Assembly: GCF_001552785.1 (NCBI RefSeq)
Contig: NZ_KQ959487.1
Coordinates: forward strand, 1-64,000
From: Atopobium deltae
GTDB taxonomy: Bacteria; Actinomycetota; Coriobacteriia; Coriobacteriales; Atopobiaceae
Direction: 5' to 3'
Length of the DNA: 64,000 bases
The notes beneath the pieces are model-generated. The model was not told where the DNA came from, did no database searches, and saw only the letters and a program-made list of their open reading frames with translations. Made by a program: the position numbers and the translations under genes. Shown in pieces: positions 30,514-64,000 of this stretch. Each line of letters starts with the position of its first letter. Position 1 is the stretch's first letter.

Positions 30514-30525
30514 GAAAGCCTCCAT

Positions 30526-42258: not shown

Positions 42259-42276
42259 GGTCGCTTTCACCTCCTC

Positions 42277-43548: not shown

Positions 43549-43731
43549 ACATGTTCTAACTATGCTCTCAGTGGTATCTTGTAGGTACGCAATTTTCGCG
43601 CTGCAGCACGAAGGGTTGTTGATGGCAACGCGGCGGAGGTTTTGGCGGTTTGTTGATGCCCGCGGCATCAGTGCGTTACTGCGATACGTGCCGTAAAAGC
43701 CCTGATGTTCCACCCGTGATAAGGAGGAACC

Positions 43732-44247
43732 ATGTCTGAATTTCAAAAGCTTGCTCTCGAACGTTTTTCTTGTCGTAAGTTTTCTGATGCATCCGTCGAT
43801 AATGCCCTTATCGAGAAGGTCCTCAAGATTGCACTTGCCGCGCCAACTGCCGTTAACAAGCAGCCCTTCCGCATTTGGGTGCTTTCTGGCGACGTAGCAC
43901 AGCGTTTTGCTGAGCACAATCCCTACCATTTTGGTGTAAAAACGTTCATTTTGGTGGGCACGTCCGCAGAAGAAGCGTGGGTACGTCGCTACGATCAACA
44001 GAACTTTGCCAATGTCGACGGCGCCATTATCGCCACGCACATTATGCTTGCGCTTACCGATTGTGGTTTAAAAACCTGTTGGGTGGCCTCATTTGATGCG
44101 CCAGCCGTGCATGAAGCTCTGCCCGAAACCGCAGCGTATAACCTCATCGCCGCATTTCCCGTGGCATGGCCTGCCGAGGATGCACAGCCCAGCGCATCTC
44201 ATACAAAGTCTCGTTCGTACGACGAGCTCGTACACCACTTGAGCTAA
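43732..44247 (+). CDS. Nitroreductase-family flavoprotein
   Basis: 171 residues, short nitroreductase fold. It has the FMN-binding RFSCRKF start, the AAPTAVNKQPFRIWVLS block and an HIMLALTDCGLKTCWV helix. Members reduce nitro compounds, quinones or other electrophiles with NAD(P)H. A strong AAGGAGG precedes the ATG. It ends 7 bp from the convergent hydrolase gene with no terminator between them. Substrate unknown. Confidence 0.93.
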   Translation: MSEFQKLALERFSCRKFSDASVDNALIEKVLKIALAAPTAVNKQPFRIWVLSGDVAQRFAEHNPYHFGVKTFILVGTSAEEAWVRRYDQQNFANVDGAIIATHIMLALTDCGLKTCWVASFDAPAVHEALPETAAYNLIAAFPVAWPAEDAQPSASHTKSRSYDELVHHLS

Positions 44248-44254
44248 ACGGCGT

Positions 44255-45160: not shown

Positions 45161-45225
45161 AATATATCCTTTCTCGCTGCGCATTACGCGCTACGCATCA
45201 CGCGTCACGCCTCTCGGCCTCGCAC

Positions 45226-47743
<2,518 letters not shown>

Positions 47744-49222
47744 CTATCTTCGACGAGGCATATCATCCGACTGATCGGGAATCTGATCGGACGGCTTACC
47801 TGTCGACTGTGCCTTTTGCAGCACCTCATCAGAACCGAGTGTCACTTCAACGGTCTTCTCGGCATCGCCACGTTGTACAGTAACTTTGATCTTATCGCCC
47901 ACTTCGCGGCTGCGAATCGCCAAAATAAGCGCGTCGGCGGAAGAAATTGCCTCATCGTTAATCTTTGTTATGACATCGCCCTGCTTAATGCCGGCCTTAT
48001 CGGCAGGACTACCTGGGGTGACCTTGGCAACGTAAGCGCCCTGGTTGACAGCAAGCTGGCTGTGCGCCGAATTTTCGGGCGTGACCGTTTGGAGCGCCAG
48101 GCCAATGTAGGCATGCAGCACAGGCTTGCCCGAAATGATGGTCTGGGCGACGCGTACCGCATAATTGGACGGAATGGCAAAACCAATACCAGCGTTTGCG
48201 CCCGACTTCGACTCGATAATGGAGTTGATGCCCACGAGCTTGCCCTGCGCATTGACCAAGGCGCCGCCCGAGTTGCCAGGGTTGATAGCGGCATCGGTTT
48301 GGATAAGATTTGCGTAAATGGTATTGCCCGCGGCAGAAGGAAGCATGGTCGAACGGTACAGCGACGACACGATGCCCGAAGAAACGGACTGGTCAAGGCC
48401 ATAGGGGCTGCCAATGCTCATGACCCAATCGCCAACAACCAGCGAACTGGAGTCAGCAATCTCCATGGGCGTGAGGTCTTTTTCCTGCGCTTTAATCTTA
48501 ATAACAGCCAGGTCGCTCGAAGGGTCGGAGCCCACGACTTTTGCCTCGTAACGCTTCTTGCCCAGGGTAACGCTTATCGACTGAGCGCGAGCGACCACGT
48601 GGTAGTTGGTCAGGATGTGGCCCTGCTTGTCCAGAAGCACGCCAGAGCCAACGTATCTGCCGTTGGCAGCGGTCACGTTAAGCGACGCAACCGAGGGCAA
48701 GCACTTCTTTGCGACGGCCTGTGCCACGTCTGCCTTGGTATTCCCCGCGTTGATGGTGATCGTTTTGCCAGCAGAGCTAAAGTTTGGCAATAGTGGTACG
48801 TCGAGAATACCAGCGAACTTGAGCGACAACACCACCAGTAAAGCGCCAATGGTAGCTCCCACAACGCTGCCAAGTATAACGAGCGTGTAGCGGGGTCGGT
48901 GTGCTGCTGGCTTTTTTGTTTTGGAGTCGGGCGAGTTGATTGTTCCCTCGGATGCGGCGGCTTCGGGCGCGGCATCACTGCTAGCTGGAATTGGTTCAAC
49001 TGCTGCGGGCGGGGTTGGACCCGCAGCGTGCGCGGGAGCGGGATTGGCGGGCGCAGCGGGGCTTGTAGGCACAGCAGAGTTCGAAGTGCCCGGCTCGAGA
49101 TAAGCTGCCTCGTTTTCTTGATGCTGCAGCTGATACTCCTGCTGCTCCTGATGATTTTCGGCAGGCACGGTCTTCTCGGTATCGGGGATGTTATTCTCGA
49201 AATCGTTCGTACAATCTGACAT
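47744..49222 (-). CDS. htrA: HtrA/DegP-type membrane serine protease
   Basis: 492 residues. A cytoplasmic N-terminal region of about 110 residues rich in Pro, Ala, Gln and Glu is followed by one membrane helix (TLVILGSVVGATIGALLVVL). The extracellular trypsin-like domain has the catalytic triad NYHVV (His), SSDLAVIK (Asp) and NPGNSGGAL (Ser). One C-terminal PDZ domain (YIGLALQTV to KIKVTVQRG) ends in an Arg-rich tail. It degrades misfolded exported proteins. Single gene with its own terminator. The long proline-rich cytoplasmic tail is common in actinobacterial HtrA. Confidence 0.95.
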   Translation of the reverse strand: MSDCTNDFENNIPDTEKTVPAENHQEQQEYQLQHQENEAAYLEPGTSNSAVPTSPAAPANPAPAHAAGPTPPAAVEPIPASSDAAPEAAASEGTINSPDSKTKKPAAHRPRYTLVILGSVVGATIGALLVVLSLKFAGILDVPLLPNFSSAGKTITINAGNTKADVAQAVAKKCLPSVASLNVTAANGRYVGSGVLLDKQGHILTNYHVVARAQSISVTLGKKRYEAKVVGSDPSSDLAVIKIKAQEKDLTPMEIADSSSLVVGDWVMSIGSPYGLDQSVSSGIVSSLYRSTMLPSAAGNTIYANLIQTDAAINPGNSGGALVNAQGKLVGINSIIESKSGANAGIGFAIPSNYAVRVAQTIISGKPVLHAYIGLALQTVTPENSAHSQLAVNQGAYVAKVTPGSPADKAGIKQGDVITKINDEAISSADALILAIRSREVGDKIKVTVQRGDAEKTVEVTLGSDEVLQKAQSTGKPSDQIPDQSDDMPRRR

Positions 49223-49510
49223 GAAACACCTTTTCTATGTGCTACGTCATATGGCGCGTTGTAGTGCTTTTTCACACGTCTGTGTCATCGCCAGCGCCAC
49301 GCGCGTAGAAGCTTTCTCTTTGTATTGTGCACAAATAGAACTCATGTCAAACACTAACATACCGATTTTGCTAGGTGAACAGACAAGAAACATGCTTACA
49401 AAGCTAAGACTGCATGAAGGCTTTTAGAAAAAAGTTTGAAATTGTGGAATGCGTTGGCCGACAAGCTGGCGCACGAACAGCGAATAGGCAACGTGTTGCT
49501 GCGGCTTACA

Positions 49511-50185
49511 TTAGAGCTTAAACAAGTAGCCAATGCCGCGGACGGTAACAATGTGCGCCGCAATTTGGGGGCCCACTTTTGAACGCACACGACGAATGTG
49601 CACATCAACGGTGCGAGTGCCGCCACAGTACTCAAAGCCCCATACACGGTGCAGCAAAATATCGCGCGAATAGGCACGCGATGGATGCGTTGCCAAAAAC
49701 GAAAGTAGCGAGTATTCCATAAGCGTCAAATCGACGGGTTTATCGTCAACATATACTTGATACGTTGCCAGGTTAATGGTCATATTGTCGATACTCACGA
49801 TGTCCGAAGCGGTGCTCTCTTCCCCAGACCACAGCATCTGAGAAATGCGAACTTCCATCTCGGCCTCGGAGCAATTCGAGACGAGAAAATCGGTCTTGAA
49901 CTGCGTGGGCAGGTGAAGCTCGCCCAACGCCGACTGATCGACAATAAAAATAATAGGCATGGTGCCATTGGAAGAAAGGTATGCTTCGACAGAGCCGAGA
50001 AATTCCTTTGTGATTGCCGCTAAATCGAGGATAACCAAATCAAAATCATGATCGGAAGCGATGGCCTGCGTAAAGGTGTCGGGGGAAGCAATAAGCGCAG
50101 AGGCATCAATGGAGCGCGTGAGCGCCCTTAAGTGATCCCGGTGACGAGCTGTTTTTGATATGTATAAAATATTTCTGTGATGCAC
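49511..50185 (-). CDS. GlnR-like orphan OmpR-family regulator
   Basis: 224 residues from GTG 50185, which has GAGGTGG at 5 nt; a frame start at 50245 overlaps a hairpin and lacks a ribosome site. Receiver-like domain (1-110) keeps an Asp (DFDLVILDLA), but the acidic pair before it is gone (NILYISKTA) and the usual C-terminal Lys is not seen, so ordinary phosphorylation is doubtful. The OmpR winged helix is intact (LTLMEYSLLSFLATHPSRAY, RTVDVHIRRVRSKVG, TVRGIGYLF). There is no kinase gene. It lies 94 bp downstream of glnA, matching actinobacterial GlnR, a nitrogen regulator with an atypical receiver. Confidence 0.8.
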   Translation of the reverse strand: MHHRNILYISKTARHRDHLRALTRSIDASALIASPDTFTQAIASDHDFDLVILDLAAITKEFLGSVEAYLSSNGTMPIIFIVDQSALGELHLPTQFKTDFLVSNCSEAEMEVRISQMLWSGEESTASDIVSIDNMTINLATYQVYVDDKPVDLTLMEYSLLSFLATHPSRAYSRDILLHRVWGFEYCGGTRTVDVHIRRVRSKVGPQIAAHIVTVRGIGYLFKL

Positions 50186-50216
50186 TGCTTCCACCTCTAG
50201 CCGGATGTGGGAAAAT

Positions 50217-50253
50217 AATGCCTGGAGTTGAGGATACCACAGCACCAGGCATT
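50217..50253 (-). terminator. Hairpin between glnA and the GlnR-like gene
   Basis: Perfect 9-bp inverted repeat AATGCCTGG (50217-50225) and CCAGGCATT (50245-50253), followed on the minus strand by ATTTT. It suits a weak glnA terminator or attenuator. A TATAAT-like minus-strand -10 (50256-50251) overlaps it, so it might also serve as an operator for the regulator gene. Confidence 0.6.
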
Positions 50254-50279
50254 ATAGACGCTCAATAGGCGCTCACATA

Positions 50280-51620
50280 TTAAAAGCCAGCATAGTAGCG
50301 CTTTTGTTCCCAATCGGTTACCGCAAGACGGTACTCTTCCCATTCACGTTTTTTCTCGTTGAGCAAGTAGGTAAAGATATGCTCGCCCAAGGCCTCACGC
50401 ATAAGCGTGCTCTTCTCGAACCGCGCAAGTGCTTCGCCCAAGTCGCGAGGCAATGGATTGAAGCGCTTTGCGCGAAGTTGCTCCTCGCTCAACTTGATGT
50501 CCTCAATGGTTGCTTCATCGGGAAGCTCAAGGCCATTTTTGATGCCCCGCATACCCGCAGCTAACGTAACCGCAAACGCAAGATAAGGATTGCAGGTGGG
50601 GTCGGGACTTCTGAGTTCAATGCGCGTGGCCGAAGGTTTGTTGGGCTTATGTATGGGAATGCGCACCAAGGCTGCGCGGTTTTTGCGGCCCCAAGTGGTA
50701 TAACAGGGTACCTCTCCGTGGGGAACCAGGCGCTTATAAGAGTTGACCGATGGATTCGTAATAAGCGAAAACTCGGGCGCATACTTCAAGATGCCTGCAA
50801 TATAGTGCTTTGCCAAATCCGATAAGCCCACACCATTCGCGGAATTCTCTTCATAGAACAAGTTGTTGCCCTCATGATCCATCAGTGACTGATTCACGAA
50901 GAGCGCCGAGCCAGGGATGTCGGTAAAAGGCTTCGGCATAAATGACGCGTAATGCCCCTGATAATGCGCTGCTTCTTTGATAAGAAGACGAGCGGTCAAG
51001 ATATTATCTGCACAGGTACAGGCCTCTGCATAACGCAACTGAATGCCATTTTGAGAAGGAGCCAGCGAGTGGAACGAATACTCCACGGGGATTGACATTT
51101 TCTCAAGTGCCAAGGTGGTGCTGCGTCGCAAGTCCTGTGCATAATCGAACGGCGTCAAATCAAAGTAACCAGCATGGTCAAGAAGCTGAGGAACGACGTT
51201 GTCCTTCAAATAAAAGTATTCGATACCAGCGCCGACATTGAGGATATAGCCGAGCTTCTCGGCATCGCGAAAGACCTTATCGAGACGCGAGCGAGAATCC
51301 CCTGCAAAGGGCTCGCCCGACGGCGTCTTAATGTCGCAAAACATGCGCGCCACGCTGCTTTCGTCCGCGCGCCACGGGAGGAGCTGGAAGGTTTCGGGAT
51401 CGGGAAACGCAAGCATGTCAGACTCTTGCAATGGCACAAAGCCATCGACAGCAGAGCCGTCAAAACCAATGCCTTCCTCAAAGGCCTCTTCCAGATCTTC
51501 GGGAGAAATGGCAAGTGATTTAAGATTTCCGAGCACGTCGGTAAACCAAAGGCGAATAAAACGAATATCGCGCTCTTCTACCGTACGAAGGACAAAATCA
51601 ATATTTTGTTCGTAGGACAT
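50280..51620 (-). CDS. glnA: Glutamine synthetase, type I
   Basis: 446 residues, GSI-alpha length. Conserved blocks: FTDVLGNLKSLAI, GIGFDGSAVDGF, VGAGIEYFYL, NSYKRLVPHGEVPCYTTW and RIELRSPDPTCNPYLA. It condenses glutamate and ammonia with ATP. The short C-terminal half lacks the Tyr adenylylation loop of the beta type (it reads LPRDLGEALARFEK), so control is likely by feedback and transcription. A strong AGGAGG precedes the ATG. It is followed by the GlnR-like gene on the same strand. Confidence 0.95.
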   Translation of the reverse strand: MSYEQNIDFVLRTVEERDIRFIRLWFTDVLGNLKSLAISPEDLEEAFEEGIGFDGSAVDGFVPLQESDMLAFPDPETFQLLPWRADESSVARMFCDIKTPSGEPFAGDSRSRLDKVFRDAEKLGYILNVGAGIEYFYLKDNVVPQLLDHAGYFDLTPFDYAQDLRRSTTLALEKMSIPVEYSFHSLAPSQNGIQLRYAEACTCADNILTARLLIKEAAHYQGHYASFMPKPFTDIPGSALFVNQSLMDHEGNNLFYEENSANGVGLSDLAKHYIAGILKYAPEFSLITNPSVNSYKRLVPHGEVPCYTTWGRKNRAALVRIPIHKPNKPSATRIELRSPDPTCNPYLAFAVTLAAGMRGIKNGLELPDEATIEDIKLSEEQLRAKRFNPLPRDLGEALARFEKSTLMREALGEHIFTYLLNEKKREWEEYRLAVTDWEQKRYYAGF

Positions 51621-51774
51621 GGTTCCTCCTGGCGGATAGCAAAACTGACCATGGTAAGATCTTATTTTCTTACTACATCATAAGCCTGACACAGTGTTGT
51701 TTCACCAGTATTTCGTAACTCTAAGAAAAAAGTGAACCGTCGTAAAAAAATCTGGCAGCGGTAGTGCGCTACGG
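51621..51774. other. glnA upstream region
   Basis: Non-coding, A- and T-rich; probably holds the glnA promoter and any nitrogen-regulator sites. I could not assign -35/-10 boxes or a GlnR box with confidence. Confidence 0.4.
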
Positions 51775-51895
51775 TGCTTGATGACTATCGGCGCACTGCT
51801 CGATGCTTGACGACTATCGTCGCGCAATGCCCAGTGCTTGATGACTATCACGAGCAATGCTCGGTGCTTATTGCGGACTGCTTAATGCCTACTTG
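51775..51895. repeat. Imperfect 30-bp tandem repeats upstream of glnA
   Basis: The phrase TGCTTGATGACTATC starts at 51775, recurs at 51804 (one change), 51835 and, partly, at 51865, a spacing of 29, 31 and 30 bp. GCAATGC or a related segment lies between. Four units in non-coding DNA. Confidence 0.8.
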
Positions 51896-51938
51896 ATGTC
51901 TACTTATCTAAAGAGCCTCTTGTTTGTATGAGAAACTC

Positions 51939-52163
51939 TTATTTATGTGAAGAAACCGCTTGCTTATGCGAGGGGAATTTTGCTTCCATACCTGCAACAA
52001 CCGTTTGTGCAATGGGACACGAACACTCGGTGTCACCAGTTACACAACAATTGGAAGCGCTGGCGCACCCGCTACAATCACCTTTGGAATGTCTAAGTCG
52101 ATAAATCGCACCAATAACTGCAGCAACCACGATCGCAGTAACGGCGACGTCCACGAAGGACAT
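51939..52163 (-). CDS. FeoB-associated Cys-rich membrane protein
   Basis: 74 residues from the ATG at 52163 (AGGAGG at 7 nt). One membrane helix (DVAVTAIVVAAVIGAIYRL) is followed by a Cys-rich tail (GDCSGCASASNCC, TECSCP), the pattern of the small FeoB-associated family that accompanies ferrous iron uptake. No feoA or feoB is present here, so the gene is separated from its usual partners. A 16-bp palindrome in its promoter suggests metal-dependent repression. Confidence 0.85.
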   Translation of the reverse strand: MSFVDVAVTAIVVAAVIGAIYRLRHSKGDCSGCASASNCCVTGDTECSCPIAQTVVAGMEAKFPSHKQAVSSHK

Positions 52164-52190
52164 GTAAAGACCTCCTTGAGCCCAACAAAT

Positions 52191-52206
52191 GTTATACATG
52201 TATAAC
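52191..52206. promoter_or_regulatory. Palindromic operator of the Cys-rich protein gene
   Basis: GTTATACATGTATAAC (52191-52206) is a perfect 16-bp palindrome 28 bp upstream of the start codon, beside a TATAGT-like minus-strand -10. It is a plausible site for an iron-sensing repressor of the DtxR or Fur type; which one cannot be told. Confidence 0.65.
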
Positions 52207-52377
52207 TATACCCGTTTTTTGAAAAGATGACCCCCATAAACATACTTTAGCTGTATATAAAGCCATTCTTTTAATAAGGTCCTCTGTATCAAATCCTTCT
52301 AGCATTTGCTTGAGTGGGAATATTTATACACTATGGGCTTTGCTCATGAGCGCGGGTGATTGATTTTTGAAGCATCT

Positions 52378-52968
52378 TCACGAAATGAGAAAAGAAACTC
52401 CTCCCCACGAGACTTTTGTTCCCCGCGAAAGCTGGATGTCTGCTTCTTGCGCTATGGACGGACGCAGACCCAAAAGCGCTATACCCTGTGGCGTGCAGCG
52501 CAGCATAAGACTCCCCGCTTTTGTTTGTATCGTCAATTTTGGAGCCTGGACAGAAGTTCGCGGGTTGCATACTTGCGGCTCAGGCTCTTGCAGATAAGAG
52601 CTTTGCGGCGATGGCGGTGGCGGTTCTAATGTTTGTGCTCCAGAAACCTCCAACTCAGAAACTTGCAGCTCACGATCGTCCTTGTGTTCAAATGAAACTG
52701 AATCATACACATCAACGGGCACTTCTCCTACCAAAGCGTCTTCCACAACTCCCTTTGAAATTCCTTCTAAGATTCCTTCTAAAACTCCTTCTGAAACTTC
52801 CGCTGAGCAAAGCTGGTTTTGCGGAACTTTTTCTGATGAAAAATCATAGAGGCAGCCGTAACAAATATCCATATCGGCAAAAAGCGTTGCTCCGCAACAG
52901 GGGCATGTTTTGATTTCCGATTCTGGACTTACTGGTGGCTCTAAGCTCGGTATATGCATGTAACTCAT
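52378..52968 (-). CDS. Zinc-ribbon protein at the end of the Tad locus
   Basis: 196 residues. N-terminal zinc ribbon with two CxxC knuckles (CPCCGATLFADMDICYGC). The middle is low complexity: a VLEGILEGISKGVVEDAL repeat and a Pro/Gln/Glu stretch. The C-terminal 60 residues look like beta strands (LTIQTKAGSLMLRCTPQG, SRGTKVSWGGVSFLI), recalling an FHA-like half domain but not identifiable as one. No membrane segment. It follows tadE by 121 bp on the same strand and may be part of the Tad operon. Function unknown. Confidence 0.75.
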   Translation of the reverse strand: MSYMHIPSLEPPVSPESEIKTCPCCGATLFADMDICYGCLYDFSSEKVPQNQLCSAEVSEGVLEGILEGISKGVVEDALVGEVPVDVYDSVSFEHKDDRELQVSELEVSGAQTLEPPPPSPQSSYLQEPEPQVCNPRTSVQAPKLTIQTKAGSLMLRCTPQGIALLGLRPSIAQEADIQLSRGTKVSWGGVSFLIS

Positions 52969-53089
52969 CCTTTCGTAGTTCGCACGGTGTTCCCCATGCT
53001 ATTGCTCACATTGTTGTTTTTGCTGTATTGCAACAGCAACTACGACTACCTTTGCTGTCGCTAGTTTTTGTGCTGTTCTGTTTGCTTTA

Positions 53090-53617
53090 TCACAGCACCA
53101 CCCCACAGCGATAAGGATCTACGACAAGTCGATACTCAAATCGTAAAAAAGCAGGTGGACTCAACGAAACTCCCGCTATGGCAAAATTTGATGGCCACGG
53201 ACGTATTTGCATGGTGCATATGAACTCATCAAATTTTGGAAGCATGCTGAAGATGGCTTGCACTGCTGGCTGTGATGCCTCAAGTCTGTCAAGCTGCTGT
53301 ATTTTCACGTCAACCGTGCCCTTATCGCCCAAATGCATAATTTCGCTCACCTGCTCTTGAACGGCATGCGTGCGCTCATGCGCATTTTGTTCATCAGAAG
53401 CAGTAATGCCAAGATTGACAATGGTGTGCGAGCAAGCCATAGAAAACTTCATCGCAAGACTTATATAACGTGCAAGATTAAAAACAAGCAGAATAACGAT
53501 AAGCACCACGGGTAGCACCACCGCAAGCTCCACACTCATTTGACCAGCTTTTTCGTTATGTAAGCCTCGAAACACATCAAGCAAGGCCTTCCGGAACTGT
53601 GTTTTGCAAAGCATCAT
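53090..53617 (-). CDS. tadE: TadE-like pseudopilin
   Basis: 175 residues. A short basic leader ends in a prepilin-type junction followed by a hydrophobic stem with Glu at the fifth position (GQMSVELAVVLPVVLIVILL). The rest is extracellular. TadE proteins are minor pilins cut by the Tad prepilin peptidase and needed for pilus assembly. Its start overlaps the stop of the preceding tadG-like gene by four bases. Confidence 0.85.
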   Translation of the reverse strand: MMLCKTQFRKALLDVFRGLHNEKAGQMSVELAVVLPVVLIVILLVFNLARYISLAMKFSMACSHTIVNLGITASDEQNAHERTHAVQEQVSEIMHLGDKGTVDVKIQQLDRLEASQPAVQAIFSMLPKFDEFICTMQIRPWPSNFAIAGVSLSPPAFLRFEYRLVVDPYRCGVVL

Positions 53618-55740
53618 ATGAGCCTCACTAATTTACGAATATCGATCGTCAGGGGGATGGTGACATCCGTTCCCGGTATGGGTAATGACGCGATCGTAAA
53701 GTTTGATTCTGGCAGGCTGTCGACAAGAACAGACCCAAACGCTTTAGCTATATCTGTTGGGGTAGGTTGTTCTGGTAGACCCTCTATTTTTTGTCTTACG
53801 CTGTCGGTATTTTGATAACCAGCTTTTGTAAGTATCTTTTGCGTATTGACCAGAACAGGCTTTTTAGCTCGTAAGTCAACAGGCGCAAATCCAGCCTCTT
53901 CTACTATCTTTACAAGTGCATCTTTAAGCATATGGGCAATGTGACTTCCCCCTATTTGATCAAAGCCATCAAAAAAACGAGAGCTTGCCTGACCAATCGA
54001 TTCATAGGCTGTGTTATATGACATCAACAGCCTTCCCCATACTTGGCAAATTTGTTGAGGAATACCTGTAAGGAGACCCTGCTGACCCTGGCTTAACCCA
54101 TCAAAAAGATGCGAGAGCACGTTGCTTTGTGCGTCGGCTTTGTCAAGTGCTAAAACTGCTCCCGAAACAGCGCAGCCCCCTGGCAGCGTTGGTTGTGCCA
54201 AACCAAAGGAAGTAGCCCCCGCCACCTGCGGTTCTGATTGATTTCTGAGGACAACGCCAATGCAACCCCAAGCTCCTGGAGGGCAAAGTTTTGGGCGATC
54301 AACCCTGAGCGCTTCCAATGCCCTTGCAAACACATCCTTCGAAGCATCAGCTGATGACTTCACGGCCTTCTCGGCTTCAATCAATTGGTTCTGGTATGTC
54401 TCGTATCGTGAGGCACAGTCCACAATTTTTGCCCACCAGTGTTCAAAGCCATTTTCAATCGACGTGGACGCTGCGGGAACTTTGCCAACGCTGCTCGTTT
54501 TAAAGCGACAGATAGGACATTCTTCAACACGCCCCGCATCTAAATCTGCAAGCGAGGCAAAGCCTTGTGCCTGCCCCTGCACATGGGGGCAAACCGGCGA
54601 GCAATGCAAAATCTTTTTATTTCCCTGCATAGTCATAGGCCATAAGGCTTGCGTATATAGCGAGGTCGTTTTAAGTTCCTCGGTATTCATTGGAAGCTTT
54701 GGAAGATCTACCCGCACGGTCTTATCGGCATTGACCTGCACACTTCCGCGACTCAGCGTCTCGTATGCATACTGATAAAACGCTTTGCGCGCAGCTGAAT
54801 TGCAAAGTTCTTCTACCCCCTCATGAGCTGGCTTTTCTTGCGCAAGACGCCTTGCATAATAGGTTTGTGCACGGCGCAGAGGCACTTCAAAATTCCAGCC
54901 CTGCGCTGTATCAAACGCAGGATTGTCCTGCTCGGAAATATCCGACAACGTTTTGGCTCGCTGCCACAAACAATAGGGTCGAGCGCCGCAATCGAAAAAC
55001 CAAGCTTCTTCAAGTGCTTTTTGAGCCTCTTGCTTTGCCTCATGGGCCTTATCGGATTGTTTACCAAGCGTAGTTGCACTCTCTTGAAGATCAGTTGTGT
55101 CGGGTAGTGTCTCATCCAGCGCAAATTTGCTTTGCGATTGTAGCGGGAAAGGTATGGTTGTGCCTGCATGCAATACCTGCTTTTGAGAGGCCTGACTTGC
55201 ATTTTTCTTGATGGTGCTTGTGCCATTATGCGCAATGAGCACAGGGAGCGCTTGCTCAAATTTTGCCAAACCCTTATTTGCCGTTTTTGCAAACTTTGCA
55301 CGCGCATCAAAAATTTTGTGTGCCGCATTAACCGTCTCGAGCCCTTGTGCAGAAAGACCAGGCACTATCGATAAGACCAATCCGACGCCGCCGACGAGAG
55401 CGCCTGTTATCCCCATGCTCAAAACGCACGAGTCTAGGGTTTGTGCTACTGTTGTGTATCCAGCAACAACATTTGCGCCTGCAAGCGCCGCTGCATCAGC
55501 CACGGTTTGTGTCTTATTTGAGTGCTGCACATACCACCCAACCAAACTCATACCAAAAAGCAGGCTCACGCTCACAACAAGAGAACACGCCACTGCAATT
55601 GAGGTATAACCTCCTGTTTCAGCCAGAAATAACCAGAGCGGCCCTTTTGAGCCTTTTGATGCCTTCGGATACTGCAGATGCTGCGATCTTCTTTTTGGTT
55701 TTGAAGAGCTATTGTTCCCACAGAGAAACCCATGTCTCAT
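53614..55740 (-). CDS. Large TadG-like pilus protein with a metal-binding insert
   Basis: 708 residues from the ATG at 55740, which has GGAGGG upstream; a frame start at 55815 overlaps the previous gene more deeply. A basic N-terminus and one membrane helix (TSIAVACSLVVSVSLLFGMS) are followed by QTVADAAALAGANV, the hallmark TadG-type (Flp pilus-assembly) segment. The long extracellular part has a coiled-coil region and, near residues 379-411, an HCSPVC ... CPIC pattern like the small metal-binding motif H-x-G-C ... C-x-x-C found beside nucleases and in envelope proteins. Role of that insert unknown. Sits between two TadE-like genes. Confidence 0.8.
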   Translation of the reverse strand: MRHGFLCGNNSSSKPKRRSQHLQYPKASKGSKGPLWLFLAETGGYTSIAVACSLVVSVSLLFGMSLVGWYVQHSNKTQTVADAAALAGANVVAGYTTVAQTLDSCVLSMGITGALVGGVGLVLSIVPGLSAQGLETVNAAHKIFDARAKFAKTANKGLAKFEQALPVLIAHNGTSTIKKNASQASQKQVLHAGTTIPFPLQSQSKFALDETLPDTTDLQESATTLGKQSDKAHEAKQEAQKALEEAWFFDCGARPYCLWQRAKTLSDISEQDNPAFDTAQGWNFEVPLRRAQTYYARRLAQEKPAHEGVEELCNSAARKAFYQYAYETLSRGSVQVNADKTVRVDLPKLPMNTEELKTTSLYTQALWPMTMQGNKKILHCSPVCPHVQGQAQGFASLADLDAGRVEECPICRFKTSSVGKVPAASTSIENGFEHWWAKIVDCASRYETYQNQLIEAEKAVKSSADASKDVFARALEALRVDRPKLCPPGAWGCIGVVLRNQSEPQVAGATSFGLAQPTLPGGCAVSGAVLALDKADAQSNVLSHLFDGLSQGQQGLLTGIPQQICQVWGRLLMSYNTAYESIGQASSRFFDGFDQIGGSHIAHMLKDALVKIVEEAGFAPVDLRAKKPVLVNTQKILTKAGYQNTDSVRQKIEGLPEQPTPTDIAKAFGSVLVDSLPESNFTIASLPIPGTDVTIPLTIDIRKLVRLI

Positions 55741-56179
55741 AATCACCCTCCAACCATTGCGGTCGAACCTTTGATGATGCTTTTTCTTTAAGCACGATGC
55801 CCTGCTCATCAGCATCTACAAACAAACGAAGAGCTCCATAAAACAGCGGCAGTGGCTTTGCATGTCCGCGAATCGTTATTTGGCACACATCAGCCTCTGG
55901 CTTTGCGCAATCCACAACCCAGTCTTGCGCTCCCCCATTATGGAAAAGACTCACCTCGGGGACCATCGCTAAACGGCGTTTTACAAATGCCTGCACCGCA
56001 TTAATATCAGTAGTGGTTTGCAGCGCGCGGATGGCCTGCTGAGAAGTTGAGTACATAATCGCCTTGGTATAAAACAAGCACAGCGTTTGTAATAGGCACA
56101 GGAGGAGCACCGCACAGACAGGAATAATAAAAGCAGCTTCAACACTTGATTGAGCTTGTTTCTCAAAAAAGAAGTGCAT
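55709..56179 (-). CDS. TadE-like pseudopilin
   Basis: 156 residues from ATG 56179. Leader, then a prepilin-like junction and hydrophobic stem with Glu (AQSSVEAAFIIPVCAVLLLCLLQT), then an extracellular part with a likely Cys pair (VVDCAKPEADVCQIT). Second minor pilin of the locus. The start overlaps the preceding gene by 17 bases, and the end overlaps the tadG-like start by 32 bases, so the group is translated as one unit. Ribosome site weak. Confidence 0.8.
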   Translation of the reverse strand: MHFFFEKQAQSSVEAAFIIPVCAVLLLCLLQTLCLFYTKAIMYSTSQQAIRALQTTTDINAVQAFVKRRLAMVPEVSLFHNGGAQDWVVDCAKPEADVCQITIRGHAKPLPLFYGALRLFVDADEQGIVLKEKASSKVRPQWLEGDYETWVSLWEQ

Positions 56180-56453
56180 CTTGCCACGCACCAATATGCT
56201 CGTGCCCCTGAAACGTATGCGTGCACCATGTGATGACATGTGCCAAAAAACTACCCTTTGTCATGGCATGCAGCAGAGCAATAAGACAGAGCATCAGTCC
56301 CGTGCATATCCCTAAGACAAGCGCATATTCCACCGTAGACTGCGCTAGGGCCTCTGATACAAAACCGCTGCAGACAGACAAGGCACACGTCTTCTTAGCA
56401 TGCGTATTCTTAACACGCGTCTTCTTAGCCCTGATACGCCTTACGAACTGCAT
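56163..56453 (-). CDS. Short prepilin-like protein
   Basis: 96 residues if it starts at Met 56453. A Lys/Arg-rich leader contains a small direct repeat (KKTRVKNTHAKKT, from a repeated 12-bp block in the DNA near 56,395-56,430). Then comes QSTVEYALVLGICTGLMLCLIALLHA, a type IV prepilin-like junction with Glu at position 5 and a hydrophobic stem, and a short tail. It resembles Flp or TadE in the N-terminus only. Could be a third minor pilin or an altered Flp. Start uncertain. Confidence 0.65.
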   Translation of the reverse strand: MQFVRRIRAKKTRVKNTHAKKTCALSVCSGFVSEALAQSTVEYALVLGICTGLMLCLIALLHAMTKGSFLAHVITWCTHTFQGHEHIGAWQDALLF

Positions 56454-56964
56454 CTTTTGTAAGTCGCACCGTACTAATGCGACTTGTTTGCTTGCTATGA
56501 CGTGATACAAAAACAATGCTTACTCCCTCCTTCGTTTGAAACGTGCAGCTCCATACATTTCCTTGTAAATCGAGATATCCGTAACGGACTACTATGCTGT
56601 CATTGAGGCGCTGGTAGTGCTTGAGCACTTGGGTAGCAGCCTGTGTAAGATCCCCAGAAACCTCTTTTGTTTCCTGCGAGAAGATCTGGCGAGCATTTTG
56701 TTTTTTCGGGCTTGCTGCATTGGTTTGCGCTTCTGCTTCTAGAGATACGCGCTTAGAAGATAACGATGCCTGCTGCGCTGATCTTCGTTGTGAATACGCC
56801 AACATAAAGGCTAGGGCAACTCCCAGTATGAGGACCAATGCAAGCAGACTGACCACACGAGTCATCCAGTGCGTCCTGCGCATGCGTTTTAAACGCCATA
56901 ACCATCCGCGACGCTTGCACTCCGTACGTCTACCTGCTCTTTGCTGCGCTGCTCGAAAACTCAT
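56425..56964 (-). CDS. Single-pass membrane protein of the Tad locus
   Basis: 179 residues. An Arg-rich N-terminus (cytoplasmic by the positive-inside rule), one membrane helix (VVSLLALVLILGVALAFMLA) and an extracellular domain with a small mixed alpha/beta C-terminus. I recognise no family. Start ATG 56964 overlaps the flp stop (ATGA), so it belongs to the pilus operon. It may be an assembly or anchoring factor. Confidence 0.75.
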   Translation of the reverse strand: MSFRAAQQRAGRRTECKRRGWLWRLKRMRRTHWMTRVVSLLALVLILGVALAFMLAYSQRRSAQQASLSSKRVSLEAEAQTNAASPKKQNARQIFSQETKEVSGDLTQAATQVLKHYQRLNDSIVVRYGYLDLQGNVWSCTFQTKEGVSIVFVSRHSKQTSRISTVRLTKDAVRKAYQG

Positions 56965-57200
56965 AAAGAATTAATGCCTTGCGCAATGGTGTCCCATAAC
57001 TCACTTACCTTGTCCTTAAAGGAAATGATGGCCACAATGGCAATCACCACTAAGACGCCAACTAAAATCGCGTACTCCGTGGTACCTTGCGCGCGCTTCT
57101 CATCTTTGAGAAGTCTCAACAACTGCCTCAATTGTCTTTGAACTATGTTGCAACAGCGTTTTGCGTGGGTTGTTACAACATGAAGCGGAATAATATCCAT
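56961..57200 (-). CDS. flp: Flp-type major pilin
   Basis: 79 residues from the ATG at 57200 (GAAAGGG site). Basic leader, then AQGTTEYAILVGVLVVIAIV, the Flp prepilin site with Glu at position 5 and a Tyr beside it, then a short tail (VSELWDTIAQGINSL). Processed Flp forms the thin adhesive pilus fibre. The leader (about 40 residues) is longer than usual. No prepilin peptidase (TadV) gene is seen in the window, so it must be elsewhere. Confidence 0.92.
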   Translation of the reverse strand: MDIIPLHVVTTHAKRCCNIVQRQLRQLLRLLKDEKRAQGTTEYAILVGVLVVIAIVAIISFKDKVSELWDTIAQGINSL

Positions 57201-57267
57201 AGCTGCCCTTTCTAACGTGGTCATTTGATAACGTGGTTGTTTGATTACTCATATAAAACAGCACCTA

Positions 57268-57981
57268 CTACGAGAATTGCATTGCGGAGCTCAAAAGCGG
57301 GCCCAAAATAGCAAGAAGCATAGCGGGAACAATAAGTGTTCCGAGCGGTATAAGCATTTTGATAGGAACTTTTTCTATCTGCTGCTCAAGCAAGCTGTGC
57401 TGTTCAGCACGAATGGAGGCTGCCTGCACCGAAAGTGCTTGTGCAAGCGGCGTTCCAAAGAGGAGTGCTTCGTCCACCGCATGCGCAAAACAACGAAACG
57501 GCTGCTGTTGCAATTGTTCTGCCAGATCATACAATGCTTCATTTCGAGAGGTCACACCTATTTCCCAGCTCAATAAAGCAGCAGCAAGCTTTCGTGATAA
57601 GGCGTTATCGAAGCGTTCGCAATAGAGACGAAGCGATGCATCAAATGACATATTTGCCGAGAGACCCAAATTGAGAATGTCCAAAAACACGGGAAGTTCT
57701 CGCAAGCACTCCTGCTGCTCTTGTTTACGCTTCTTTTTCCCAGCAAAAAGTTTTGCTTCAAGCCCTTGAATACAAAGCTTTACAAGCAGGTTTTGCACAA
57801 GCTTGCCGCTCGAAGCTGCATGAACGAAGACGCTTCGCTCAAGCGTTTGTCTTTGCTTTTTTGTTGCCGAGAGGACCTTTGGTGATACTGATTTTGACGA
57901 TGCTGATGCACTTATCACGAAGGCCCAAATAAATACCAAGCTACTAAGCAGGGCTCCATGAACGACAAACGCAATGTTCAT
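57268..57981 (-). CDS. tadC: Tad inner-membrane platform protein TadC
   Basis: 237 residues, type II secretion F-domain (T2SSF). An N-terminal helix, a cytoplasmic part with FLDILNLGLSANMSFDASL and EIGVTSRNEALYDLAEQL, and C-terminal helices (VPIKMLIPLGTLIVPAMLLAIL). With TadB it forms the platform that the TadA ATPase turns. The start overlaps the tadB stop by four bases. Confidence 0.9.
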   Translation of the reverse strand: MNIAFVVHGALLSSLVFIWAFVISASASSKSVSPKVLSATKKQRQTLERSVFVHAASSGKLVQNLLVKLCIQGLEAKLFAGKKKRKQEQQECLRELPVFLDILNLGLSANMSFDASLRLYCERFDNALSRKLAAALLSWEIGVTSRNEALYDLAEQLQQQPFRCFAHAVDEALLFGTPLAQALSVQAASIRAEQHSLLEQQIEKVPIKMLIPLGTLIVPAMLLAILGPLLSSAMQFS

Positions 57982-58928
57982 AGCTTTATCACCGCCATCA
58001 TGTGCCGAATGACCAGCAAGGCACAGCCATCAAGCATAAGCGCTATCCCCACGCACAGCATCCCTGGAAACGAACACACTGCCTGCCTAAAATCAAGAGA
58101 AAGCCCACTGAGCAGAAGTAGCATTATCACAGGTAAAGAGCAGACAATTTTTACCGACAGCCGCGCTTGCGCCGTTTTTGTGCGCAAACTTCGTACGAGC
58201 TGCTCGCGCTCTTCCAGCATGCGTGAAGAGGTTGCCAACATATCGCTTAAAGAACCACCTGTACGCTGGGAAATCTCCAAAGCCATACCCAACAACTCTG
58301 AGCCTGGCACGGCAAGCGTCTTATCGAGCGTACGCAATACTTCAGAAAGCCCCATACCGCAACGCAACGACAGTGCCGCGGTCAAAAATGTTGGAGCCAA
58401 ACTATTGCTCGCATCGTTACCGATGTATTCAAACGCCTGAAAGAGCGTTTTGCCAGAACTCAAGGCTGTCGATAAGGAGCGCAAAATTTGTGGCATCTCC
58501 CGAATGTGCTGCTGAACTCTACGCGTACACGCTGCACGGCGAGCGGCACTTACCAGCGCCACACTTACTATCGAAGCAGCTATGAAACCCAGGCTAGGAC
58601 CAAAAAGCAACACGCTCATGCCGCTGAAAGCAGTCCAGCAAACTACCACAAAGCCGCAGGCTTCCTGCGTGTTTACAACGACACCACGGTCTGCCAATAT
58701 GCGAGCACTGGCGGCATATACGGTATTGAGGGAACTGCACTTTGCAAGCCATCGAATCCCACGCAAAGATGCCAAACTTCGTAGCAGAGCTTTTAGACCT
58801 CCCACCTGTGCTCCAAGGTTTTTATGTATCACCGCAGAGCTTTGTTTGTGCGCATTACCAGGTCCAACGAACACAAAAACAGCCCCGCCTGCGAAAAGCA
58901 TTATGAGTATGAAAAAGTAGATTTCCAT
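57978..58928 (-). CDS. tadB: Tad inner-membrane platform protein TadB
   Basis: 316 residues. N-terminal membrane helix, a T2SSF cytoplasmic domain ([34 protein letters not shown]) and C-terminal helices ([20 protein letters not shown]). Pairs with TadC as the pilus platform. ATG 58928 has GAGGTG at 5 nt. The start lies 28 bases inside the tadA end. Confidence 0.9.
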
Positions 58929-60316
58929 TGCTGCACCTCAGCTTGCGTAACAATTCCCTCATACAGAGCTCGATTCATAAAAGGTGGTGTACAACGCAGC
59001 CTCCAACGTCTTCCGCTCATATCGAAGGAGACCAATTCCTCAAGTTTTACCTGGCCATTGGTGGCTTGTTGCACGAGCGACGTTGTGGTAATTACCCTTG
59101 AACCGTCGGGCATACGCGCCGACATGACGATAAGATCGAGTGCTGTAGCAACTTGTTCTTCAATGACATCAACAGGCAAATTCATCCCAAAGCGAGCCAT
59201 AAGCACGAGTCGTAAAATTGCCTCTCGTGCGCTACCCGCATGTAGGGTTGTCAACGAGCCGTCATGCCCCGTATTCATTGCCTGCAGCATGTCAATGCAC
59301 TCTTCTCCACGAACTTCGCCGACAATAATACGATTCGGACGCATGCGCAAAGCATTTTTCATCAGGTCGCGAATACTGACTTCGCCTGTACCCTCGATCG
59401 ACGACTCGCGCATTTCAAGGCGAACGACATGCGGGTGCGTATCAAAACGCAGCTCAGCAGAATCTTCGATGGTAATAATGCGTTCTTGAGGCGAGATTTC
59501 TGATGACAGCGCATTTAACAACGTCGTTTTACCTGATCCCGTACCTCCTGCTACCGCAATGTCTTCTCGGCATTTAACGGCCCACGACAATAATTGTGCA
59601 TACCATGCTGGTAATGATTTGAGCTGCACTAATTGTGCAAGCGAAGCAATGCGGTCCGAAAACTTTCGAATCGTCAGAATGGGGCCATCAAGCGCTACGG
59701 GCGCATTAACCACATTAACGCGATAGCCGTTTGGCAGACGCGCATTCACAAGCGGATGCTGTTCATCAAGGCGTCGACCCAAGGGTGCTAAGATGCGATC
59801 CACCACCATAAGAATCTGCTCTTTTGACTCAAAAATACGGCTGCTCTGACACATCTTTCCAGCGCGCTCAAAAAAGAGTGACGATGTCCCGTTGACCATG
59901 ATTTCGGTAACACTTGCATCATCAAGCAAAGGTTGCAAAGGTCCAAAACCCAATACTTCATCCAAAACCTCTTTGATGAGTTCGGGATGGTTTGCCTCGG
60001 AAAGGCCCTCGTAATGCGAGGTATTAAGGATAGTTTGGCAACTCACCGAAAGCTCATCGTACGCATTATGCAACGTGGCACTGTGGGCAATTCGTGCGAT
60101 GGTATCAAGACCAAGTTCCTTTACTAAATCATGTTTCAAGCGAGAAGTATGCTGGTCATGCAAGCTTTGAACTTCATGGTTAAGCGGCTCGAACACTGCT
60201 GCATCACCAGAAGACCCTTGATCAGAAAAATCCCGCGCGGCAAGCGCCTGTGCAGAAAAGCCCTGCGCGTCCATACTTGCCTTTTGAACGCTTTTAACAC
60301 GAGCGAGTAAACTCAT
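58901..60316 (-). CDS. tadA: Tad secretion ATPase TadA (CpaF family)
   Basis: 471 residues. N-terminal domain (about 45-200) with [21 protein letters not shown], then Walker [10 protein letters not shown] (257-265), Asp box, Walker B-like [14 protein letters not shown] and His box [12 protein letters not shown]. The hexameric ATPase powers pilus extension and possibly retraction. It overlaps tadZ by one base (TGATG). Confidence 0.95.
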
Positions 60317-61641
60317 CAGCTTACCTCTCTCATACGTGCAAAGAAGCCTTTTTGCTTCGTGGGAAATTTAGTATCAAGTGCTTTTTGCGCCTCGGGATGA
60401 TCTGGCAAACACCCAAGTTCTGAAAGTATCTTTGCAATACAAATCTTTGTACTTGTCGAAAATGGATTATCCAACTCGATAAGTTCCTGTAGATGCCCCG
60501 AGTGTAGAAGCTCTCGCAGTTCAGCCCCACCATCAGCAGCACGCAACAAGCGCGCAGCTTCAAGACCCACGTCCGCGCGGTACACATATGCCTCATGAGG
60601 CTTTGCAACGTCATACTTGTTTGTTACACGAATGATCCTTGTACGTGCCACACCAAGACGCACTGCCAAAGCGGCGCAACGCGACAACGAGCCCACCTCA
60701 GCCGAAACATCATCCGCAACAAGGACCAAACGATCGCAGAGCTGCGCTGCAAGAGCAACCGACTCACTCCAAAAAGTAGAAGTATCAACAAGAACGAGAT
60801 CATAGCCATTGGATAGGCTTATAAGCAGATCATTTGCCATCGGTGTAACCGTCTCGGCAAACTCGGGCTTCTCGCAAGGACCCCATAGCTGTATCTGATC
60901 AGAAATTTTAGTTGCTGCTTGCAGCACCGTCTCATCAAATGGCTGTTGAGAAAATCGAGCGAGGTCGCCACTTTTTACGCCAAATAAAGACGCGAGATTG
61001 CCTGTTCCTAAATCTAAATCCACAAGCGCGACGCGCATTCCCCATAACGAAGCATGGGTTGCCATTGCAGCTGTGAGAGAAGTTTTTCCAACACCACCAC
61101 GTCCTGACGCCACCACAATAATAGGTGCACAATCTTTTTTACGAGTCACATGCATGGCGTTTTTAGACAGGTTCTCTAAGCTTGGTAATCCCTCCACTTT
61201 TGCCAACCCATCTGAGCTGGGTAATTCCCCTGGCCTAGACAATCCTTCTGGTTCGTCGAGATCCCCCAACTTGAGAGCAGATGACTTTTGAGCTGCACCC
61301 TGCGCAAAAGCCGTAAATGCTTCAAGAGTATGCACCCGAGAAATGCGCGCCCGCGCAGCTCTTGAACGCAGCGAACCCGAAGGGTTTGCAAGCACTAGCA
61401 CCACTTCATCGGCATATCCATCCTGCACTAATGCAGAAGCAGCGTTAATAGGAGTCACTTCATCAAGTGAAGGGCCAATCAACACTGATGCACGATGTGG
61501 CTCATGCTCTTTAAGACAACTACGCACGCGCCCCGCATCAGGTTCTAAAATAAAAGTGGCTTCAGGATGTATCCCGCGCATGGAACGCACAAGCGCTTCA
61601 CTATACTGCACATCTGAGCATATGTACCAAATATTAGCCAT
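60316..61641 (-). CDS. tadZ: TadZ/CpaE-type localisation ATPase
   Basis: 441 residues. N-terminal receiver-like domain (1-115; no ordinary phospho-acceptor site is clear), a Leu/Gly/Ser/Pro-rich linker with short repeats (about 126-160), then a MinD/ParA-like ATPase. The deviant Walker A reads SGRGGVGKTS (179-188): the signature Lys of MinD (KGGVGKT) is Arg here. TadZ places the pilus machine at a pole or patch. ATG 61641 has a GAGGGA site. Arg for signature Lys may mean weak ATP hydrolysis; many TadZ proteins share such changes. Confidence 0.88.
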   Translation of the reverse strand: MANIWYICSDVQYSEALVRSMRGIHPEATFILEPDAGRVRSCLKEHEPHRASVLIGPSLDEVTPINAASALVQDGYADEVVLVLANPSGSLRSRAARARISRVHTLEAFTAFAQGAAQKSSALKLGDLDEPEGLSRPGELPSSDGLAKVEGLPSLENLSKNAMHVTRKKDCAPIIVVASGRGGVGKTSLTAAMATHASLWGMRVALVDLDLGTGNLASLFGVKSGDLARFSQQPFDETVLQAATKISDQIQLWGPCEKPEFAETVTPMANDLLISLSNGYDLVLVDTSTFWSESVALAAQLCDRLVLVADDVSAEVGSLSRCAALAVRLGVARTRIIRVTNKYDVAKPHEAYVYRADVGLEAARLLRAADGGAELRELLHSGHLQELIELDNPFSTSTKICIAKILSELGCLPDHPEAQKALDTKFPTKQKGFFARMREVS

Positions 61642-61650
61642 CGTATTCCC

Positions 61651-62490
61651 TCACTCTGTTGGGCTTGCATTGCTCGGTTGTATGTCATCAAAATTTTTAA
61701 GAGCCTTTTCGCTGGTATCGGCTCCTCTCGTCGGGCTTGCGTTATTGTTTTTTGACTTATTCGACTGCGGCGAGGTAGGCGTTACGCTGGACAGTGCATC
61801 AGGTTTTGTACTAGACGCCGCGCCAGGCTTACTTGCTGCATCAGACGATGTACCAGAATTGCGTGGTAAAGCCTCAGCGGGAACCACAAAACGCAATTCT
61901 CCTCGCGAACTCACCGCTAAAATCTTTTCAACCTCTGTTTCGGGAACGGCAAGCGTCAACATGCCATTGGCGAGTGTCTGTCCATCCGAAATGGCCAACA
62001 CTAAAATCTCTGAGGTAATACGCTGTGTGGAATCGGCATTGCTTACATAAGCAGCCAGTTTTGTTCCCGCCTGCACATGGGGCGATAAGCCTAATTTCTC
62101 GCTCAAAGGAATGCTGATCGCGACCATCCCTTGCGGTACCGAAAGGCTCTGCCCTGCTTCACGAAAATTAAATTTCGAAAGTGGCGCGCCTGCACAAACA
62201 GGAACACTTACTGATTTGCCGATAATATCGTCAATACGCGTAATTGCCTGTTGCGGCGCGAGTTCGCTCACCCAATCGCGCAGCACAACATCAGCAGCCT
62301 CAATGGGTTTGCCTGCTTCAATCGTATGCGTTGCCACAGCGACGCGCACAATGTCACCGCCATATTTTGCAAGTAATTCCGAGCGCTGAGCCGCAAAACG
62401 AGCCTGCACTGATTGCGTATAGGATAAAAACACTACCCCCACCGCCAGCGCACACGCGCACGAAAAAATGATTCTGAACTTCCGTGACAT
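61651..62490 (-). CDS. cpaB: Flp pilus assembly protein CpaB (RcpC-like)
   Basis: 279 residues from ATG 62490, GGAG at 5 nt. Signal-anchor (IIFSCACALAVGVVFLS), a SAF/beta-clip domain (DIVRVAVATHTIEAGKPIE, VVLRDW) and a second domain with SVPQGMVAISIPLSEKLGL. A Ser/Thr/Pro-rich C-terminal tail follows. CpaB may bind peptidoglycan and scaffold the pilus. It opens the cpaB-tadZ-tadA-tadB-tadC-flp run. Confidence 0.88.
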   Translation of the reverse strand: MSRKFRIIFSCACALAVGVVFLSYTQSVQARFAAQRSELLAKYGGDIVRVAVATHTIEAGKPIEAADVVLRDWVSELAPQQAITRIDDIIGKSVSVPVCAGAPLSKFNFREAGQSLSVPQGMVAISIPLSEKLGLSPHVQAGTKLAAYVSNADSTQRITSEILVLAISDGQTLANGMLTLAVPETEVEKILAVSSRGELRFVVPAEALPRNSGTSSDAASKPGAASSTKPDALSSVTPTSPQSNKSKNNNASPTRGADTSEKALKNFDDIQPSNASPTE

Positions 62491-62625
62491 CACCACTCCG
62501 TACCACGAACTTATCGGTACGTTTATTGTGAAAGGTACACAAGCGGGTAAGGGTCACAATATGAAGTTTTCGATTTTGAACTGTCAGCTTTCTAACAAAA
62601 ATCTAACAGGTTTCTCTGCACATAT

Positions 62626-62639
62626 GGTCTTCTCGACAG
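62626..62639 (-). repeat. Extended dispersed word CTGTCGAGAAGACC, intergenic
   Basis: Exact 14-mer in the 183-bp gap between cpaB and rsgA, so it is free of codon constraint. Confidence 0.75.
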
Positions 62640-62673
62640 CAAGGACAAAAAGGCGCAGCAAGGACACATGAAG

Positions 62674-64000
62674 TTAGGGCAACATCGCGGGATCAATATC
62701 GGGCGCAAGCGAACGAGCGGCGCTTTCCATTTCCTGAGCAAGCGCTGCATACGCCGCAAGACGTTCAGGAGCAATGTGTTCGCTGCATATAGCTTGCATA
62801 ACCTGGCAGCCTGGCTCGTGTGCGTGAGTGCAATCTCTAAATTTGCAGTCCTGCGCGGCATCAACAATGTCAGAAAAGACAAGCGAAAGCCCCTGCTCAT
62901 GACCCATAAGCGCTAAATTGCGCAAGCCTGGGGCGTCGATAATAACGCCTCCGTGAGGAATTTTAACCATGCGGCGGGCGACGGTGGTATGTCTTCCCGC
63001 ATCGTCGGATGCGCGTACCTCAGCGGTTTGCAGGGCCTCGTGACCCAATAAAGCGTTAAGCAAGCTTGATTTACCTGCGCCAGACTCACCGAGCACAAGA
63101 GTGCAGGTCTTCTCGACAGCATAGCTGCGCAGGGCTTCAAGGCCCCACTGCGCAAGGTCGGGCACTTCGGTTTGAGGCTTCGCTGAGAAGGGCGCGGAGG
63201 CCAACGGCGACACTTGCGTGGATGGCTGCCAGGTGGGAGAAGAGCTCGTAACTACGACGGGGATATCGGTACCGACAACGCGACGTAAAAGCAAAATTTG
63301 CTCGATGAGCTGGTCATGTTGGGTAATTCTGTCGGCCTTCGTAAGGACAATAACAGGGCGAGCGGAGCAGTCTCGCGCGATGACGAGTGAGCGTATAATA
63401 CGATTAATATCCAGTGCTGGAGCCGAATTCTGCGCTGCGGGCAAATTCGTCGCCACCGAAGCAGCCGCATCCAACAGTGGCTGCGCAATAAAAACCACGT
63501 CAACATTAGCAGCCAACACCTGCTGAGTGCCTCGGCGAGAACCCCGCCAGCGAGCGAGTTGATTTTTTCGCTTGATCACGGCTTCTATAACACCCATATC
63601 ATGCGCATGCGGACGACGCACAACAACCCAATCGCCCACCGCCACGCCTTCGTAGGCATCTTCTGCTCGAGAAGCGCACGCAGGAACTTTTTTCCCACTA
63701 GAGGGCTGACGAGAAGTTCGTAGCGCAGCATCGCGAGAAGCCCTAGCGGCACTTCGAGAAGATTTGTCAGAATCGCGAGCGACCTGCGCTGCATCGCGAG
63801 AAAACACAGGCGCATACTGCGCTCGAAGCGTGGCGTCCGCGCAACAAACCGCAGGAAATCCGCGGTCAAGACGCACAACACACCCGAGGTGATACTGTTG
63901 TGCGTCTACTCCTGTTTTTTTTGAAAGACGCTTGGTGAGCTGCTCATACTCACGATATTGCTCATCGCTTACAGCCAGCTGATCAAAGCGAGGTGCGGCG
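62674..64000 (-). CDS. rsgA: Ribosome biogenesis GTPase RsgA (partial, start outside window)
   Basis: The minus-strand frame is open from the stop at 62674 through the window end, so the N-terminus lies beyond base 64000; GTG 63876 is inside the coding sequence, not its start. Upstream codons read YEQLTKRLSKKTG and GCVVRLDRGFPAV, matching RsgA N-termini. It has an OB fold, circularly permuted GTPase motifs (LTKAD, GESGAGKSS, DAPGL) and a zinc knuckle (CKFRDCTHAHEPGC). RsgA matures the 30S subunit. An Arg/Ala/Ser-rich insertion of about 45 residues (near 63,660-63,790) splits the OB domain and holds four CGAGAAG copies. Confidence 0.92.
   Translation of the reverse strand, partial: AAPRFDQLAVSDEQYREYEQLTKRLSKKTGVDAQQYHLGCVVRLDRGFPAVCCADATLRAQYAPVFSRDAAQVARDSDKSSRSAARASRDAALRTSRQPSSGKKVPACASRAEDAYEGVAVGDWVVVRRPHAHDMGVIEAVIKRKNQLARWRGSRRGTQQVLAANVDVVFIAQPLLDAAASVATNLPAAQNSAPALDINRIIRSLVIARDCSARPVIVLTKADRITQHDQLIEQILLLRRVVGTDIPVVVTSSSPTWQPSTQVSPLASAPFSAKPQTEVPDLAQWGLEALRSYAVEKTCTLVLGESGAGKSSLLNALLGHEALQTAEVRASDDAGRHTTVARRMVKIPHGGVIIDAPGLRNLALMGHEQGLSLVFSDIVDAAQDCKFRDCTHAHEPGCQVMQAICSEHIAPERLAAYAALAQEMESAARSLAPDIDPAMLP
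63106..63119 (-). repeat. Extended dispersed word CTGTCGAGAAGACC
   Basis: Exact 14-mer inside rsgA, read as Ala-Val-Glu-Lys-Thr directly before the GTPase P-loop strand. Confidence 0.65.

Follow-up and report, generated by a model that had tools for sequence, protein, structure and literature searches.

A dispersed CGAKAAGNNC word in Atopobium deltae resembles a DNA uptake tag and may be read through a Tad pilus

The DNA uptake sequence (DUS) of Neisseriaceae is read by the minor pilin ComP. DUS occurs as related variants in related species and accumulates in core rather than acquired DNA (PMC3630211), and Neisseriaceae and Pasteurellaceae are the only families with known uptake words, the receptor of the uptake signal sequence (USS) of Pasteurellaceae having likewise been suggested to be a minor pilin (PMC12616744). 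A further point of reference is the actinobacterium Micrococcus luteus, which carries comEA and comEC, Flp/Tad pili and two tad-like clusters with no comG cluster, and for which the review describing it mentions no uptake word (PMC6370729). The 64,000-nt stretch of the A. deltae genome analysed here (the window) had been described in a sequence-only reading as a segment full of an uptake-like word that holds a full Tad core, raising the possibility that the pilus takes up self-marked DNA. Our analysis identifies the word as CGAKAAGNNC, whose behaviour is closest to that of an uptake tag and furthest from that of a polar or regulatory site. We tentatively propose, with a confidence that falls a little short of even, that it is a genome-wide self-DNA tag like DUS and USS, plausibly read through Tad and ComEA.

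Like DUS, the word is present in thousands of short non-palindromic copies, lies in core rather than acquired DNA, has related variants, and occurs together with competence genes and a type IV filament. It is unlike DUS in being unrelated in sequence, in belonging to a monoderm actinobacterium with a Tad rather than a type IVa pilus, and in being mostly coding rather than intergenic. With USS it shares a short core with weaker flanks, occurrence on both strands and a dense presence in the genome, the differences being an unrelated word and phylum and no outer membrane to cross. We know of no ComP homologue for the A. deltae word. The features expected of a DUS/USS-type system that are found here are a high copy number on both strands, absence from recent imports and competence machinery in the genome. 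As in M. luteus, an actinobacterial comEA/comEC pair accompanies a Tad/Flp locus, and we found no other pilus motor; M. luteus differs in its two clusters and Tad-dependent transformation, transformation of A. deltae being putative.

Because the sequence-only reading gave no spelling for the word, it was sought de novo by k-mer search. The top 7-mers of the window are CGAGAAG (75 copies, 9.9 expected) and CGATAAG (61 copies, 11.0 expected), and the CGAKAAG sites are divided between 71 on the forward and 65 on the reverse strand. Their alignment shows C at +9 in 82% of sites and a weak TG upstream, and 2295 genomic sites yield a consensus of approximately YTGNCGAKAAGANCGNCG, in which a strong core and its graded flanks together span about 18 bp. 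The whole genome (1.45 Mb) contains 2634 CGAKAAG and 2084 CGAKAAGNNC, about one word per 0.7 kb, with an overall CGAKAAGNNC density of about 1.45 per kb. When synonymous codons were shuffled within each gene as a control, window ORFs held 130 CGAKAAG sites against 27.9 +/- 4.8 expected, with each frame and orientation class that contains sites above its own expectation. Across 1.25 Mb of the genome, ORFs held 1636 CGAKAAGNNC against about 210 after shuffling, a 7.8-fold enrichment, and the intergenic DNA of the same 1.25 Mb held 178 against 19 of the reversed word. By the same control neither CGACAAGNNC (ratio 1.0) nor CGAAAAGNNC (ratio 0.8) is enriched, so the K position is strict, and CGAKAAG lacking the C at +9 is near expectation (ratio 1.3). 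Variants with T or A in place of the last G of the word are still enriched 2-4 times, which would fit copies that are decaying or tolerated. The enrichment with strict K and +9 C, extending into intergenic DNA, and the graded character of the motif count in favour of an uptake tag. Codon usage as the whole cause is ruled out by codon shuffling for both A. deltae and A. minutum. Terminators and intergenic repeats are likewise ruled out, the majority of words being coding and the intergenic density lower (0.94 versus 1.55 per kb).

The word is evenly distributed along the genome, at 1.55 per kb with an SD of 0.34 per 20 kb against 0.28 for Poisson, and its gaps are approximately exponential (mean 515 bp), indicating a spacing close to random. 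Relative to GC skew, which served on the draft contigs as a proxy for the replication strand, word orientations are 707:654 (p 0.16), showing no replication-strand bias; E. coli Chi, used as a control for the method, gave a strand ratio of 30:13 and a 2.2-fold enrichment. These values bear on the main alternative, an unlikely one, in which the word is a Chi-type site of an AddAB-like helicase-nuclease, enriched because it protects the chromosome in break repair and with no role in uptake. As with the Chi sites of RecBCD/AddAB, the word is over-represented, non-palindromic and missing from foreign DNA, and the enzyme family is encoded in the window, by a strongly matching AddA-like and a weakly matching AddB-like gene at 13020-19963. 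The lack of a leading-strand bias weakens this explanation, and the word further departs from Chi in its density and enrichment, both above those of the E. coli control, and in being a gapped 10-bp core with graded flanks.

Genome-wide, the word also forms 30 inverted pairs that overlap exactly, CTTMTCGAKAAG (divergent, distance 5; for example at 20587/20592 and 40034/40039 of the window), a pair count far above that at other close divergent spacings. Such pairs could suit a dimeric binder, and a second alternative, which we consider distinctly unlikely, holds that an abundant DNA-binding protein, for instance one that structures the chromosome, binds the word, or that the word is a signature of some other origin, in either case with no link to competence. 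Having no strand bias, the word does not display the polarity along replichores of a KOPS/FtsK-type site, and it shows no regional clustering. In aligned orthologues of A. deltae and A. minutum, both of which are enriched, just 22 of 150 words are common to the two genomes, so that individual sites are replaced while the density persists; this low positional conservation disfavours fixed regulatory sites. Mutational context alone is disfavoured by the enrichment of a gapped motif in both orientations and in several reading frames. Strand symmetry, near-random spacing and site turnover are all observations in favour of an uptake tag.

Also in its favour, words are missing from DNA of foreign type: stretches of phage RecT/SSB, TraG-like and restriction type contain 0 words each, where 17.9, 7.9 and 16.2 are expected. 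The word-free islands are G000:C34 (L098), G000:C33:1-11152 (L097), G000:C8 (L048) and G000:C24 (L089), where G000 denotes the A. deltae genome, and their genes include RecT/SSB of phage type, a helicase with an N6/N4 methylase of restriction type, a TraG-like ATPase and HsdR-like proteins.

The full Tad core that had been claimed (cpaB, tadZ, tadA, tadB, tadC, flp and minor pilins) is borne out by domains and gene order at 53090-62496 on the reverse strand (Table 1). This gene order is kept in relatives, and a type IV leader peptidase (A24) encoded outside the locus, at G000:C10:31774-32409, completes a Tad/Flp set of cpaB, tadZ, tadA, tadB, tadC, flp, TadE-type pilins and peptidase. In a profile search of the A. 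deltae genome, no T2SSE or type IV filament ATPase other than TadA passed the family cut-off. The sole match of the leftmost ORF (52378-52968) is to a zinc ribbon and lies below threshold; this ORF probably does not encode a pilus component. Two other Atopobium genomes (G001:C3:1150318-1151304 and G002:C1:27217-28206) encode a further TadA-like ATPase (48-49% identity), which has no counterpart in A. deltae.

Table 1. Features of the window, with positions in window coordinates and the basis of each assignment.
Feature	Position	Strand	Basis
Dispersed word CGAKAAGNNC	1..64000	both	136 CGAKAAG sites, 111 with C at +9; genome-wide signature
AddA/RecB-like helicase	13020..16784	-	TIGR02785 2.4e-76, below curated cut-off
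AddB-like protein (weak match)	16763..19963	-	TIGR03623 9.3e-12, TIGR02773 4.6e-07, below cut-offs
TadE-like minor pilin, 175 aa	53090..53617	-	PF07811 1.2e-06
Large Tad/TadG-like pilin, 733 aa	53614..55815	-	PF13400 4.5e-05
TadE-like minor pilin, 176 aa (QSSVEAAFIIPV)	55709..56239	-	Sequence; homologues in all Tad loci compared
Minor pilin-like protein, 117 aa (AQSTVEYALVLG)	56163..56516	-	Sequence; counterparts in word-rich and word-poor relatives
Tad-locus protein, 179 aa, one hydrophobic segment, no family	56425..56964	-	
Flp major prepilin, 87 aa, with QGTTEYAILVGVLVVIAIVAI	56961..57224	-	Sequence; weak class III signal PF04021; conserved in relatives
TadC platform protein	57268..57981	-	T2SSF PF00482
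TadB platform protein	57978..58928	-	T2SSF PF00482
TadA/CpaF motor ATPase	58901..60316	-	PF00437 5.6e-55
TadZ/CpaE-like ATPase	60316..61641	-	CbiA/ParA-type domains; position and synteny in relatives
CpaB/RcpC-like Tad assembly protein	61651..62496	-	SAF PF08666, RcpC PF16976

The description of the segment as full of the word stands for the window and the genome, both strongly enriched, but does not extend to the Tad locus itself, where 10 CGAKAAGNNC in 10.1 kb amount to 0.99/kb against 1.73/kb in the window. Because the locus is poorer in the word than average, its location provides no link between word and pilus, and co-location of the two is trivial since the word is everywhere in the genome. 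The proposed link draws on the uptake-tag-like statistics of the word and the Tad-plus-com gene set, with no specific tie between word and pilus emerging from our analysis.

The sequence-only reading had made its case depend on comEA, comEC and dprA, and as all three are present in the genome it does not fall for want of competence genes. ComEA (291 aa, with SLBB and HHH domains) is encoded beside comEC on contig C25, and dprA lies on C2. ComEC is a short form of 546 aa (L036:15022-16662, G000:C25), with the Competence (channel) domain followed by a near-immediate end and by holA directly after; the A. minutum protein has 814 aa, and in nearly all relatives the protein runs to about 800 aa, including an additional C-terminal region that is missing in A. 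deltae, reflecting either a real domain loss or an assembly error. The genome thereby holds the M. luteus-type gene set of comEA and comEC with Tad as the sole filament motor over cut-off. Support for an uptake tag comes from the presence of comEA, comEC, dprA and the leader peptidase, together with a complete Tad locus whose TadA is the only motor over cut-off; the short ComEC counts against such a tag. So does the literature, in that our search of open-access papers found no experimental sign of competence in this group; the search likewise found no report of uptake words there.

Among genomes of the order that are at least 95% complete, TadA is found in 216 of 218 and ComEC in 215 of 218, and ComEA in 79 of 80. 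With both gene sets nearly universal (about 99% of the order), comparing Tad/com presence with word presence proved uninformative as a test. One genome of an Eggerthellaceae-side genus (G203, genus g99) lacks TadA, ComEA and ComEC together and is the only one of the 80 without ComEA; the chance odds of jointly lacking TadA and ComEC are about 2 x 3/218. This joint absence, which we count in favour of an uptake tag, hints that the three proteins work together and is suggestive of a joint loss of Tad and com genes. On the other side, G203 is not obviously word-free by raw counts, for which the control is biased. Collinsella has Tad and com genes with the word near codon expectation, which shows that the uptake machinery does not need the word and also counts against an uptake tag. 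No receptor was found, a further point against such a tag: we found no minor pilin confined to word-bearing species, the pilins being common to word-rich and word-poor species. A minor pilin that by BLAST appeared absent from Collinsella ceased to be so on inspection of the loci.

The near-universality of Tad in the order, even in members without the word, implies that Tad has another role, and leaves room for a true uptake tag read by a non-Tad factor such as ComEA or a surface protein, with Tad serving adhesion only. ComEA is itself DNA-binding, with HHH motifs. We nevertheless regard this arrangement as improbable, given that no other type IV filament ATPase exceeds the cut-off and that the M. 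luteus and Liberibacter crescens precedents need Tad (PMC6370729, PMC8513845). If the word is an uptake tag, the Tad pilus would by analogy with these two species be its natural carrier.

We infer that A. deltae may be transformable, with an uptake that may prefer the word, and that the reader of the word may be ComEA or a Tad subunit. Under the proposed uptake tag, natural transformation would favour word-bearing fragments at the cell surface, and the word would therefore accumulate by molecular drive; the Tad/Flp pilus, as the sole candidate filament in A. deltae, would pull the DNA in, and ComEA, ComEC and DprA would take it over after the pilus step. More broadly, it is possible, if on balance doubtful, that a third form of DNA self-recognition arose independently in Atopobiaceae, and perhaps in other Coriobacteriales, one in which a monoderm Tad pilus prefers CGAKAAGNNC, molecular drive maintains the word, and Collinsella has lost it. 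If true, this would be the first self-DNA tag outside Neisseriaceae and Pasteurellaceae, and such tags would have evolved a third time with no outer membrane to cross. Co-evolution of tag and pilus would become directly testable, and placing the word in donor DNA might offer a practical route to transforming bacteria that are hard to manipulate.

Among named taxa, TadA picks out Atopobium fossor, A. minutum, Lancefieldella and Collinsella as relatives. Measured against codon-shuffled genes, CGAKAAGNNC has a ratio of 7.8 in A. deltae, 5.4 in A. minutum and 7.1 across two more Atopobium samples (36 kb). Lancefieldella reaches 3.5, other Atopobiaceae 2.3-2.7, G108 (18 kb) 3.1 and three samples of other families 2.35. 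The ratio falls to 1.3 for Collinsella, 0.95 for G184 and 1.1 for E. coli, and 17 kb of G209 holds 0 copies against 2.2 expected. Several of the relatives' ratios are rough, as the samples are small. The fraction of sites with C at +9 splits the relatives in the same way. In Collinsella, codon usage accounts for nearly all copies of the word. The word may have an early origin in the order and have since disappeared from some of its members. Order-wide counts against the reversed pattern were not taken as evidence of enrichment, this control being biased across relatives because reversed CGATAAG, with the TAG it contains, is depleted in genes; Collinsella G124, for example, appears about 4-5 times enriched by that control but only 1.2-1.4 times by codon shuffling. 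In the G184 and G124 samples (L168-L187), further short words, such as AGCTCA/GCTTGA in G184 and GCTCGA/CGGCAA in G124, are above codon-shuffled expectation and perhaps reflect a general context bias or other signatures.
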